A stretch of 62,360 nt of DNA, from contig JAILEY010000052.1 in the NCBI GenBank assembly GCA_024687165.1, forward strand, positions 1-62,360. The letters are read 5' to 3'. A model generated the notes under the pieces. It had not been told where the DNA came from and made no database searches. It saw only the letters and a list, made by a program, of their open reading frames with translations. This stretch comes from Treponema sp. (GTDB lineage Bacteria; Spirochaetota; Spirochaetia; Treponematales; Treponemataceae). The position numbers were made by a program, and so were the translations under genes. This document shows positions 56,977 through 62,360 of the stretch, piece by piece (the stretch's first letter is position 1; every line of letters begins with the position of its first letter).

Positions 56977-58281
56977 ATGTCTAATAAGAAAATTCCAATT
57001 ACACTTTTGTGCGGTTATCTTGGAGCCGGCAAAACAACTCTCATGAACAAGGTTCTTTCAAATCAGGAAGGATATAAAATAGCTGTTATTGTAAATGATA
57101 TTGGCGAAGTAAACGTTGATGCAAAATTGATTGCTGACGGTGCAAAAATCACAGATACTTCAAGCATCGTTCCTATGACAAACGGATGTCTCTGCTGTAC
57201 CTTGAAGACTGATATGGTAAAAAACATCGAAAATATCATTAAAAGCGGAAAGTTTGATTACATAATGATTGAAGCAAGTGGTGTCTGTGAGCCTATGCCT
57301 ATTGCTCAGGAGCTCGTGCAGATTAAAAACGGCGTTCTTGATAATGTTGTCGGTGTTGTTGATGCAGCACGTCTTGTTGATGAATTTGCAGGCGGAGATA
57401 AGCTTCTTGCAAAAGACAAAATCGGAGAAGAAGATATTGAAAGTCTTCTTGTTCAGCAGATTGAATTCTGTTCAACTTTGATTATCAATAAAAAAGACCT
57501 TGTTACAGAAGATGAATTTAAGAAGGTTCGCAAGGTAATTGAAGTTCTTCACCCTGGAGTTAAAATCATTGAAACAAGCCATGGAGACGTTCCTGTAAGT
57601 GAAGTTATGGCTACAGGAAATTTTGATTTTGAAAAGGTCTATACAAGTGCCGGCTGGTGTAAGCATCTTGAAGAAGATGAAATTGAGGATGAACACGATC
57701 ATGAGCATGAACATAATCACGACCATGAGCATGAAGATCACGAGCACGAACATCATCATGACCACGATCATGAAGAATGTGATCATGATCATCATCATGA
57801 CCACGATGACGACGATGATGAACACAATCCTCCACACGGGGAAGAAGGTCACAAGTGCGGATGTCACTGCAAGCATCATCACCATGAACACAAGCATGAA
57901 GGTGAAAGCGAAGATGAATATGGAATTGGAACTTTCATATATTATAGAAGAAAACCATTTAACCGTCAGAAGCTTGATGAATTTGCAAATATCTGGCCGA
58001 AGAATATCATCCGTTGTAAGGGCTTGATGTGGTTTGATGACGAACCTGAAATGGCATGGGTTTTTGAAACTTCAGGCCGCCAGATTTCAGCAGGATACAG
58101 TGGACAGTGGCTTGCTACATGCCCTAAAAAAGATCAGGAAGAAGTTCTTGCAAAAAATCCTAAGATAAAAGAAGAATGGGATGAAAAGGTCGGTGACAGA
58201 ATGATTAAACTCTGCATCATCGGTCAGAATCTTGATAAAAAGATGATTTCAGCAGAATTAGACAATTGTCTTGCTGACTAA
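56977..58281 (+). CDS. CobW-family GTPase with His-rich metal-binding insert
   Basis: The protein has 434 residues from the ATG at 56977. It has P-loop GYLGAGKTT, the CxCC metal motif in NGCLCCTLKTD, IEASGVCEP and LIINKKDLV. Between about residues 230 and 310 there is a very His/Asp/Glu-rich stretch (for example HDHEHEHNHDHEHED) ending in CGCHCKHHHHEH. The C-terminal CobW_C domain has RPFNRQKLDEF-like sequence. Related COG0523 proteins are metallochaperones for zinc or other metals. TATAAT at 56953-56958 puts the transcript start after the AGAGG, so the leader may be very short. Confidence 0.9.
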   Translation: MSNKKIPITLLCGYLGAGKTTLMNKVLSNQEGYKIAVIVNDIGEVNVDAKLIADGAKITDTSSIVPMTNGCLCCTLKTDMVKNIENIIKSGKFDYIMIEASGVCEPMPIAQELVQIKNGVLDNVVGVVDAARLVDEFAGGDKLLAKDKIGEEDIESLLVQQIEFCSTLIINKKDLVTEDEFKKVRKVIEVLHPGVKIIETSHGDVPVSEVMATGNFDFEKVYTSAGWCKHLEEDEIEDEHDHEHEHNHDHEHEDHEHEHHHDHDHEECDHDHHHDHDDDDDEHNPPHGEEGHKCGCHCKHHHHEHKHEGESEDEYGIGTFIYYRRKPFNRQKLDEFANIWPKNIIRCKGLMWFDDEPEMAWVFETSGRQISAGYSGQWLATCPKKDQEEVLAKNPKIKEEWDEKVGDRMIKLCIIGQNLDKKMISAELDNCLAD

Positions 58282-58463: not shown

Positions 58464-58835
58464 TTATATTCTTGTGAACGAAGCTTTTTCAATTTCACTT
58501 TTAAGCTCAGGGCTTGGTGTGAAAATAATTCGCTTGCTTGTGATGCATGAAGAATCAACGTTTTCTTCTTTGTCGTAGCCTTTTGAAGAGAAAGACATTT
58601 TTACGCGGCCAAAGTTTCCAAGCTGGATTTTGAAACCGTTTTTCAGATACATCGGAAGCTTTCTAACAAGAGAAGTAAGAACTGCTTCAACATCTGTAAC
58701 GTTCAAGGTACATGCGTCACTGATGTCTTTTGCCAGATCCATTACAGTAAGTTCTTCCATATACTGTGGAGCAGCGTAGAATTTTGATTCATTTTTATCA
58801 AGGGGATTGATTCGTTTTGCGATACGATATTTCAT
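58464..58835 (-). CDS. HU-related DNA-binding protein
   Basis: The 123-residue protein matches the HU-related family (TIGR01201 type) rather than classical HU. It has an N-terminal extension (YRIAKRINPLDKNESKFYAA), the helical dimer part with VEAVLTSLVRKLPMYLKNG and the beta-arm start GFKIQLGNFGRVKMSFSSKG. These are nucleoid-associated or phage-like DNA-bending proteins. It has its own AAGGA site and overlaps a small upstream frame that starts at 58896. Confidence 0.85.
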   Translation of the reverse strand: MKYRIAKRINPLDKNESKFYAAPQYMEELTVMDLAKDISDACTLNVTDVEAVLTSLVRKLPMYLKNGFKIQLGNFGRVKMSFSSKGYDKEENVDSSCITSKRIIFTPSPELKSEIEKASFTRI

Positions 58836-59492: not shown

Positions 59493-59616
59493 TTGAAACC
59501 TCCGTTCTTAACCAATCTTTTGTTTTATCTGGTTATAAATTATAATAATTTAACCGATATGTCAAGTAAAATAATAAAATAATTTATCTATTTGGTTAAA
59601 AATCAGTTTATTTTGA

Positions 59617-59721
59617 AAATTCTCGCCGAGAATTTGGTAAATACACGCCGAGAATTTTTAAAAACTCGGCGAGAATTTTTTAAAACACGCCGAGAATTTT
59701 CAAAAACTCGGCGAGAATTTT
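59617..59721. repeat. Array of five 21-22 bp palindromic repeats
   Basis: The core CGAGAATTT recurs at 59627, 59649, 59670, 59691 and 59712, i.e. spacings of 22, 21, 21 and 21 bp (two helical turns). Unit 1 is a perfect 9-1-9 palindrome (AAATTCTCG, C, CGAGAATTT). Units 3 and 5 carry CTCGGCGAG, units 2 and 4 CACGCCGAG. The units are contiguous with AT-rich joins. They look like multiple operator or iteron sites between the XRE gene and the methyltransferase. An open frame across them only translates the repeats. The rest of the 59493-59798 gap is AT-rich promoter DNA. Confidence 0.85.
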
Positions 59722-59781
59722 GTGGAGATGTTCAAAATATTTTGATTTTTCGTGAATTTTTACCCTTTTTTAATGTTTTCG

Positions 59782-59790
59782 TGATACAAT
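59782..59790 (+). promoter_or_regulatory. Extended -10 promoter of the methyltransferase/helicase genes
   Basis: TGATACAAT at 59782-59790 is an extended -10. It lies so close to the ATG at 59799 that the mRNA would start at or within about two bases of it. No ribosome site precedes the ATG. Confidence 0.55.
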
Positions 59791-59798
59791 AGACATCT

Positions 59799-60425
59799 AT
59801 GGATGTAGATTATTCAAAACTGTGGGAAAAGGTAAACGTGAATAATACAATTTCATACTACAACACTAATACCTCCACATTCGTTGAATCTACCCAGTTA
59901 GTCCAGATGACAGAAGCCTGGTCTCGATTTACCTCAAAACTAGCGCTTTCTTCCATAATATTAGACTTTGGCTGTGGCTCCGGTCGCGATACAAAATATT
60001 TCCTTGAACACGGCTATAAGGTAGAAGCTATCGATGGTTCTGAAGAATTGTGCAAAGTAGCCAGTGCATATACTGGAATCAGTGTAAAGAATCAGCTTTT
60101 TACAGACTTATCAGAAGTCCAGAAATATGACGCAGTTTGGGCCTGTTCTTCAATTCTTCATGCAAGTTCGGAAGACTTGGTAATTATCATAAAAAAGATA
60201 TGTACAGCTCTTAAATCACACGGGCTTTTCTACACATCATTTAAATATGGTGAGTTTGAAGGTGAGCGTAACGGCCGCTATTTTACTGATTTTACAGAAG
60301 AATCCTTTGCAGCCTTGCTTAAAAAATCTGCTGATTTTGATATACTCGAAACATGGATTACGGGAGATGTAAGACCTGGTCGGGAAGATGAGAAATGGCT
60401 GAATATAATCTTACAAAAGAAATAG
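59799..60425 (+). CDS. Class I SAM-dependent methyltransferase
   Basis: The 208-residue protein has the SAM motif I IILDFGCGSGRDTKYFLEHG, the acidic motif VEAIDGSEEL and the motif IV region DAVWACSSILHA. It resembles small-molecule or TehB-type methyltransferases rather than DNA ones (no NPPY/DPPY). It overlaps the following nuclease-helicase gene by 31 bp, so the two genes are tightly linked. As methyltransferases are common partners in defence islands, it may be part of a two-gene system, but the target is unknown. Confidence 0.85.
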   Translation: MDVDYSKLWEKVNVNNTISYYNTNTSTFVESTQLVQMTEAWSRFTSKLALSSIILDFGCGSGRDTKYFLEHGYKVEAIDGSEELCKVASAYTGISVKNQLFTDLSEVQKYDAVWACSSILHASSEDLVIIIKKICTALKSHGLFYTSFKYGEFEGERNGRYFTDFTEESFAALLKKSADFDILETWITGDVRPGREDEKWLNIILQKK

Positions 60426-62360
60426 GACCGATAAACTCTATTACCGGGAATACAAATAGAAGTAAGTATCTCTACTATCAGCTGAAAGATGATTTTAAGT
60501 CAGCTGAATCTATTGATTTCATAGTTTCATTTCTTATGGAATCTGGTGTAAAAATGATTCTACCTGATTTGCGTGAAGCAATTAATCGTGGAGTTAGAGT
60601 TAGAATTCTGACCGGTAAATATCTAGGGATTACACAGCCAACGGCTTTATATCTTTTAAAAAGTGAATTTGGTGATAAAATAGATTTACGCTTTTATTAC
60701 ACCTCGACAGAACAATCTTTCCATCCAAAGGCTTATTTCTTTCACAAAAAAAATGGTAGCGACGTATTTGTTGGTTCTTCCAACATTTCACGGAGCGCAT
60801 TAACCAGCGGGATAGAATGGAATTACAGATTAAACAGCAATCAGAATCAAACTGATTTTAATGACTTCTATAACACATTCGAAAATCTGTTTAATCATCA
60901 TTCTGTTATTATTGATGATGAACAATTAAAGGCTTATGCAAAATCCTGGCATAGACCGGCAGTTGCAAAAGACTTAGATAAGTTTGAGTCGTTTGCAGAG
61001 GATGACACTTTAGTTTTCAAAAACTGTGAACCGCGCGGTGCCCATATAGAAGCTCTTTATGCACTGGAACAATCTCGAAAGGAAGGTGCAGACAGAGGCC
61101 TTGTACAGGCTGCTACTGGAGTTGGAAAAACATATCTTGCAGCATTTGATTCAAAGAACTATAAGCATGTTTTATTTGTGGCTCATCGGGAAGAAATATT
61201 AAATCAGGCAGCGGCTTCATTTTGTAATGTGCGTTGCAGTAACGATTACGGCTTTTTCAATGGAACAGTTCATGATACAAATAAGGCTGTTATTTTTGCT
61301 TCTGTTGCTTCTCTTGGTAAAGATGAATATCTTAATGGCAATTATTTTAATTTGGATTATTTTGACTACATTGTTGTGGATGAATTTCATCATGCCGTTA
61401 ATAATCAGTATAAAAAGATAATCGATTATTTTAAGCCAAAATTCTTGCTTGGTCTTACTGCCACTCCGGAACGTACAGATGGTAGAAGCATCTATGAACT
61501 TTGCGATTACAATGTTCCATACGAAATCAATTTATATCAGGCTATTAATCGAGGAATGCTTGTTCCTTTCCATTATTACGGAATCTATGACCAGACTGAT
61601 TACTCAGGTTTGAAGTTTGTAAAAGGTGATTATCTTGAGTCCGAATTGAACGTGACATATTTGAATAATGCAATTCGTGACAACCTCATTTACAAGCATT
61701 ACTTAAAGTATCATTCAAAACGAGCTCTTGGCTTCTGCTGTTCCCGTGTTCATGCTGAATACATGGCAAAGGTTTTTACACAGAGAAAAATCCCTGCCGT
61801 AGCAGTTTATAGTAATTCAGATGGTGAGTATTCAGAAAATCGAGCTCAGGCAATAAAGATGCTGGAAGAGGGTAAAATAAAAGTAATATTCAGCGTGGAT
61901 ATGTTCAATGAGGGTGTTGATATTCCCGAGGTTGATACTGTAATGTTCCTTCGACCAACACAATCTGGAATAGTGTTCTTACAGCAGCTTGGCCGTGGCC
62001 TCCGTACATCAAAGGGAAAAGAATATCTCAACGTTCTTGATTTCATCGGTAACTATAAATTTGCCGGAAAGAACATAAGCCTTCTTTCTGAGCAAAAGAG
62101 ACCTGGTTCATTAAATAGTTTGAATACAGAAGTTCAATATCCGGATGGTTGTCTCGTTGATTTTGATATGGAATTGATTGACTTGTTCGAAGAAATGAAT
62201 AAGAGAAAGCTTTCCATTCATGAAACTATTCAAAATGAGTTTTTAAGAATCAAAGACCTGCTTGATGATAAGGTTCCAACACGTATGGAGCTCTTTACAC
62301 ATATGGATTCAGAAATTTATAGTCTCTGTTTATCTAATGCAAAAGAAAATCCTTTTAAGG
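60395..62360 (+). CDS. PLD-nuclease / superfamily 2 helicase fusion (3' end outside window)
   Basis: The ATG at 60395 lies inside the methyltransferase gene and opens a frame that runs off the right edge (655 residues seen). The N-terminal 190 residues are a phospholipase D-type nuclease with one HKD motif, SFHPKAYFF ... VGSSNIS. An SF2 helicase follows with Walker A ATGVGKTYLAA, DEFHH box (VVDEFHHAV), motif III TATPER, and late motifs FNEGVDIPEVDTV and QQLGRGLRTSKG. This matches the DUF3427-type PLD-helicase proteins found in phage-defence islands. The C-terminal part is not visible. Confidence 0.88.
   Translation, partial: MAEYNLTKEIGPINSITGNTNRSKYLYYQLKDDFKSAESIDFIVSFLMESGVKMILPDLREAINRGVRVRILTGKYLGITQPTALYLLKSEFGDKIDLRFYYTSTEQSFHPKAYFFHKKNGSDVFVGSSNISRSALTSGIEWNYRLNSNQNQTDFNDFYNTFENLFNHHSVIIDDEQLKAYAKSWHRPAVAKDLDKFESFAEDDTLVFKNCEPRGAHIEALYALEQSRKEGADRGLVQAATGVGKTYLAAFDSKNYKHVLFVAHREEILNQAAASFCNVRCSNDYGFFNGTVHDTNKAVIFASVASLGKDEYLNGNYFNLDYFDYIVVDEFHHAVNNQYKKIIDYFKPKFLLGLTATPERTDGRSIYELCDYNVPYEINLYQAINRGMLVPFHYYGIYDQTDYSGLKFVKGDYLESELNVTYLNNAIRDNLIYKHYLKYHSKRALGFCCSRVHAEYMAKVFTQRKIPAVAVYSNSDGEYSENRAQAIKMLEEGKIKVIFSVDMFNEGVDIPEVDTVMFLRPTQSGIVFLQQLGRGLRTSKGKEYLNVLDFIGNYKFAGKNISLLSEQKRPGSLNSLNTEVQYPDGCLVDFDMELIDLFEEMNKRKLSIHETIQNEFLRIKDLLDDKVPTRMELFTHMDSEIYSLCLSNAKENPFK

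Follow-up and report, generated by a model that had tools for sequence, protein, structure and literature searches.

SauUSI (PDB 7clg; 953 aa) is composed of a nuclease, an SF2 ATPase, a helical coupler (residues 618–805) and an SRA target-recognition domain (residues 806–953) (PMC7913695). A related nuclease-helicase is encoded at the locus described here, directly behind and partly overlapping a methyltransferase (MTase) gene. Comparison of this locus with its relatives shows that the two genes form a conserved, co-inherited and overlapping unit which recurs in patchily distributed loci.

The window, that is, the whole stretch of 62,360 nt that was analysed, is an entire contig (C78) of the 2.38-Mb assembly of a gut/rumen spirochaete (Treponema sp.). 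The pair is located at its right end, and the contig stops at position 62360 with no sequence further rightward. The first gene (59799–60425, + strand) encodes a class I SAM-dependent MTase of 208 aa, as assigned by Pfam, AlphaFold2 and synteny. The second (60395–62360, + strand; ORF and Pfam) encodes a PLD nuclease/SF2 (DExH) helicase, of which the contig end leaves the first 655 codons. The ORF coordinates give an overlap of 31 nt (60395–60425, + strand), the length already reported in the preliminary description. Left of the pair, Pfam recognises CobW, HU-HIG and XRE genes in the window. The CobW-family GTPase (56980–58281) carries a long His/Asp/Glu-rich stretch, presumably metal-binding, and the HU-HIG domain protein (58464–58835, minus strand; E=3e-27) adjoins the XRE gene. 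The sites listed by a sigma-70-type scan include no promoter-like one ahead of the MTase on the forward strand.

The preliminary description had included five ordered palindromes and a membrane-anchored XRE repressor in the cassette. There are indeed five repeat units, spaced 21–22 nt apart (59611–59721), but only some of them are perfect palindromes, the CACGCCGAG units being imperfect. The motif WCGSCGAGAATT, with at most one mismatch, has seven matches in the window versus 0.8 expected, and it is also found at G000:C47:285-303 and G000:C58:22690-22751, beside unrelated genes. The array is a dispersed Treponema intergenic repeat and, because it is scattered through the genus and stands next to unrelated genes, it was placed outside the cassette. 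A role as an operator or cassette part was rejected on its dispersal and on its absence upstream of the MTase of the closest spirochaete relative (locus L051), where neither array nor XRE gene lies within the 113 bases before the gene. Intergenic arrays with a period of 21 nt (about two helical turns), units CTCGGCGAG/CACGCCGAG and AT-rich spacers were seen across the genus (L230-L242), and the array of the window reads as an ORF of KTRREF repeats.

The XRE-family protein itself is as described, with an HTH_3 domain (59492–59103, minus strand; E=2e-15) and a hydrophobic C-terminal stretch in its translation. Its membership in the cassette did not hold. Among 58 relatives, homologues are found only in G028 (77% identity) and G035 (34%), both genomes without the MTase, and no consistent linkage of an XRE gene to the pair appears across the other loci; a role as the cassette regulator is not supported. 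The homologue in G028 has repeat copies nearby.

The fusion of a PLD nuclease with an SF2 helicase was confirmed by Pfam. In detail, a PLD-like nuclease domain (60494–60871, + strand; PLDc_2, E=3e-12) is followed by a ResIII/DExH ATPase domain with a Walker A GxGKT and a DEFH box (61025–61474, + strand; E=6e-36) and by a helicase C-terminal domain with the motif VI QQLGRGLR (61694–62008, + strand; Helicase_C, E=4e-12). In an alignment of 28 relatives, the PLD motifs are conserved as HxK and GSxN, and His110/Lys112 of HxK (60722–60730) and Asn130 of GSSN (60782) are invariant. The same alignment shows conservation of Walker A, DExH and motif VI, the last without exception, and the catalytic motifs of the window protein are intact in sequence. 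The closest full-length relative is that of L051 (uncultured Spirochaetaceae RUG11787; 849 aa, 87% identity), from which a full length of about 850 aa is expected for the window helicase. Between these two spirochaetes dN is 0.07 for the helicase and 0.13 for the MTase with dS saturated in both, and the low dN indicates that both genes are kept by purifying selection in Treponema.

The assignment of this helicase to the DUF3427 type had to be withdrawn. Three intact relatives (849 and 831 aa among them) gave no DUF3427 match at E≤0.001, whereas three other Treponema helicases matched the domain at E = 9e-58 to 1e-86 in the same scan; for the window protein, whose C-terminus is cut off, the absence is read from L051 and the other intact relatives. 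In a profile comparison of the C-terminal region with DUF3427 proteins, only the first half of the latter aligns (E=1.6e-5, probability 79), spanning columns 6–238 of 417 in the DUF3427 C-terminal alignment. The best PDB sequence match is SauUSI (7clg, E=2e-95). SauUSI is also the best fold match of the L051 protein model, aligned up to residue 799, before the target-recognition domain at 806, with the AlphaFold model of the helicase being mediocre (pLDDT 67, pTM 0.36) and its fold matches taken as support only; no new fold is claimed for the C-terminal part. By these comparisons, the window nuclease looks like the nuclease, motor and coupler of SauUSI minus the DNA-reading domain.

The helicase was scanned against 84,980 species genomes, from which the 80 best relatives were taken. 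One is the spirochaete at 87% identity, and nearly all others come from Lachnospiraceae and neighbouring Firmicutes at 59–66%. An MTase homologue is on the contig in 76 of the 80 loci and directly upstream in 72; one of the four contigs without it starts within the helicase. The flanks are otherwise unrelated, the next commonest neighbour family occurring in only 6 of the 80 loci. Across 59 loci, the distances among MTases correlate with those among helicases (Mantel r=0.84, 0 of 2000 permutations as high), a correlation that in part reflects shared host phylogeny. At a cut-off of about 700 bits, this helicase type is present in about 18 of 299 Lachnospiraceae genomes (about 6%); about 65 have other helicases, mostly of DUF3427 length.

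Other helicases of the superfamily within the genus are only 37–48% identical to that of the window, and 97 further genomes of the order lack the MTase. Since the relatives are mostly Lachnospiraceae at 59–66%, these identity levels indicate that the cassette was apparently acquired horizontally across phyla, from gut Firmicutes. As far as the distribution can be tested with a contig that ends in the helicase, the pair is patchy and is not a core gene, and the broad conservation named in the preliminary description as grounds for refutation was not observed. A broken helicase relic with in-frame stops (G005:C177:57002-57437, L034; 72–82% identity, near a contig end) indicates, from its sequence, gain and decay of the helicase within the genus. 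No plasmid match extended over 80% of the helicase, those found being DUF3427-type or other helicases at 30–41%. Viral contigs gave only eight relatives of the MTase, two of them close, and phage records include two gut contigs with the MTase and an HNH or SF2B partner (see below).

At the junction of the two genes, the helicase start codon is nested in the Lys-Trp codons of a C-terminal (E/D)(K/R)WLN motif of the MTase. Among the 80 best relatives, the overlap was measured in 70 loci, and 56 of these have exactly 31 nt. The partner starts at the conserved Lys/Arg-Trp codons in 71 of 74 PLD loci, and likewise in 12 of 15 loci with an HNH partner and in all three with the third partner type (SF2B). 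That a start triplet is available there follows from the codons themselves; the non-trivial part, read from the aligned junctions, is its use as the start by three unrelated nuclease families. Two loci have the pair split by an insertion of ~1.5–1.7 kb (L063:4281-5956 and L085:1669-3162), and L063 has a copy of the final ~41 MTase codons on each side of the insertion.

The MTase matches Methyltransf_25 (E=2e-12) and Methyltransf_11, and its Pfam matches are exclusively of the Methyltransf_11/12/23/25/31 type. The AlphaFold2 model of the MTase of the pair (METHYLTRANSFERASE) is confident (pLDDT 92). Its best fold match is RPA2492 of Rhodopseudomonas palustris (PDB 3e23; E=1e-21, 31% identity, TM 0.83), an uncharacterised MTase and the closest solved one, after which come small-molecule, protein, tRNA/RNA-type or uncharacterised enzymes. 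The motif IV of DNA MTases, [DNS]PP[YFW], was found in 0 of 121 family members, in agreement with the earlier remark that a DNA-methylase motif is lacking. Distant homologues (about 40–47% identity) have no nuclease and either stand by themselves or adjoin transporter-like or other genes, and for this reason the family is taken, from gene context, to have roles outside the cassette.

A search led by the MTase found it in 86 of the 299 Lachnospiraceae genomes. In the 44 loci that were read, overlaps of 28–40 nt also occur with partners which are not of the PLD type. The second partner type is a protein of roughly 395 aa with an HNH-type motif (VDHFIPWS...N...K) and a weak match to the HNH of Cas9. 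The third, SF2B, is an SF2 helicase of 841–854 aa whose N-terminal part is unlike the PLD type and, judged by eye, may be a PD-(D/E)XK-type nuclease. Partner types are intermingled across the MTase tree, with 10 changes among loci with a known partner versus 2 that would suffice; the well-supported branches force only 2–3 exchanges at least. The loci thus compared show that the nuclease partner is exchangeable, being PLD-SF2, HNH, or an SF2 helicase with a putative nuclease domain. The HNH-type protein carries the sequence YYNxLDIEGFSxMMKDPSYCYKFYWLEAIV... and has no clear PADLOC family; an example is L139:8320-9504, and others are in L201, L192, L194, L196, L200, L203-L205, L207, L208, L210 and L214. 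SF2B partners are located in L140:7947-10508, L190 and L193.

The exchange of partners bears on what the MTase does. It may not mark self at all, and instead act on the effector, or make or remove a small-molecule signal gating a toxic nuclease (abortive-infection logic). One MTase serving three unrelated nucleases is easily explained if they share a signal, the fold is of the small-molecule/protein/RNA kind without the DNA-MTase motif, and the nuclease of the window type lacks a DNA target-recognition domain. Nevertheless, a signal-sensing domain was not found in the partners (HNH and SF2B by PADLOC and PDB sequence; PLD also by Pfam), and the fixed MTase-nuclease order fits self-protection as well. 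A signalling or effector-modifying MTase is the main rival to restriction-type logic, and we consider it rather unlikely, at perhaps one chance in a handful or slightly better.

The surroundings of the pair are rich in defence genes. When 149 proteins encoded close to the pair (no more than two genes away on each side) were scanned against PADLOC at E≤1e-15, matches were found to AbiLi, AriA, LmuA, BrxP, BrxL, JetC, JetD, PtuA, Avs1a and NsnB, as well as to DRT-system reverse transcriptases. In a control set of 127 proteins, drawn from nine unselected regions in four of these genomes, the matches were mainly to mad3, PDC-S02 and PD-T4-6; the neighbours were counted by family, with redundancy, and with so small a control the comparison is qualitative. 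The pair has both traits expected of a defence-island gene, a patchy distribution and, as judged against this small control, an enrichment of defence genes around it. The claim of a defence cassette is consequently retained for the MTase-helicase pair, which is conserved, mobile and near defence genes, and was given up for the array and the XRE gene. Judged from sequence and context, a defence function of one kind or another is probable.

This distribution also bears on an ordinary DNA-repair or housekeeping operon, consisting of a RadD/XPB-like helicase and a metabolic MTase. The motor is similar in sequence to RadD and XPB, but such an operon would hardly be patchy, absent from nearly all relatives, set in variable and defence-rich flanks and likely transferred across phyla; this explanation was already disfavoured and is now very improbable.

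A DUF3427-type helicase lies within the flank, in tandem with the pair's helicase, in 5 of the 80 loci, and the nuclease-motor core matches the PADLOC Type IV model (mREase_IV) at 1e-105. Both are what would be expected if the pair were a stripped-down, SauUSI-like modification-dependent (Type IV) enzyme, in which the MTase is an accessory and the coupler-only helicase reads modified DNA through an uncharacterised surface. On the contrary, the DUF3427/SRA part is missing, and the MTase adjoins the helicase in 72 of the 80 loci and stands next to HNH nucleases as well, which leaves this a distinctly unlikely reading. As a separate observation, a coupler-only helicase occurs near a DUF3427-type PLD helicase at L117, L121, L127, L097, L077 and L110, which thus hold two related motors; at L110, the C-terminal end of a DUF3427-type helicase and a NUDIX gene lie upstream. 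All nine DUF3427-type PLD helicases of same-genus relatives (L035-L043) have a NUDIX hydrolase gene close behind, often overlapping, and the same DUF3427 helicase and NUDIX pair is seen in Lachnospiraceae (L139, L201, L225).

On balance, we lean towards a defence cassette of two genes that was acquired horizontally and follows restriction-type logic. The order of the genes, MTase before nuclease, would then correspond to an M gene ahead of an R gene, and their overlap would couple translation, so that synthesis of the nuclease could not precede that of the MTase. The MTase would most likely methylate a host target, either a nucleic acid or a nucleic-acid-linked group, and in this way protect the cell, whereas invading DNA would be cut by a PLD nuclease dimer powered by the DExH motor. 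The self/non-self decision, which the SRA domain makes in cis in SauUSI, would be supplied by the MTase; with the SRA domain missing, the MTase or its product would seem to have taken it over. Counting against restriction logic are an MTase without motif IV, its solved relatives of small-molecule, protein and RNA types, and its nuclease-free distant homologues. The more specific proposal, a new restriction-type immunity in which a constant, non-canonical MTase marks self by something other than a recognised DNA-base methylase and is joined at one fixed start-codon junction to interchangeable nucleases, is put forward tentatively, as a possibility with a little over a third of our confidence.

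If the favoured restriction-type reading is true, a modular defence with one MTase and unrelated nucleases exists undescribed in gut bacteria, and the question becomes which MTase modification satisfies three nuclease chemistries. A SauUSI-type restriction motor could then operate with no DNA-reading domain of its own, and a function would be given to widespread, unnamed helicase and MTase genes in Lachnospiraceae.

Among described systems, no model of PADLOC 2.0.0 describes the MTase/helicase pair, and no prior description of it was found in open-access full texts. Mokosh helicases belong to another superfamily. The MkoB model matches the PLD part only (E=1e-5, residues 37–147), the motor is an SF2 ResIII one and the Mokosh helicase model is absent among the matches listed; identity with Mokosh was rejected, as the combination of a Mokosh-type helicase with a PLD domain was not found. 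As for MADS, the MTase partly matches the mad2 model (E=6e-14, about 125 of 492 positions) and weak similarity to mad1 was seen as well, but other MADS genes were not seen, the genes on the left side being those for CobW, HU-HIG and XRE. PADLOC models of PbeA, from the archaeal Dnd-Pbe phosphorothioation system, match the nuclease and motor parts with a score far under that of the Type IV models.

The pair also resembles SauUSI and two-gene restriction-modification systems. With SauUSI, the best PDB match by both sequence and fold, the pair shares the N-terminal PLD HxK nuclease, the SF2 DExH ATPase and the helical coupler, and it differs in that its helicase relatives, of about 830–850 aa, are without DUF3427/SRA and have an obligate-looking MTase partner. 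With restriction-modification systems it shares an MTase gene that comes first and overlaps the nuclease gene, and the exchange of nuclease types; unlike in those systems, its MTase is without motif IV, a target-recognition domain was not found and DNA methylation is putative. The combination of a constant MTase, a fixed start-codon junction and different nucleases, as recognised in the loci compared, is newly found here.
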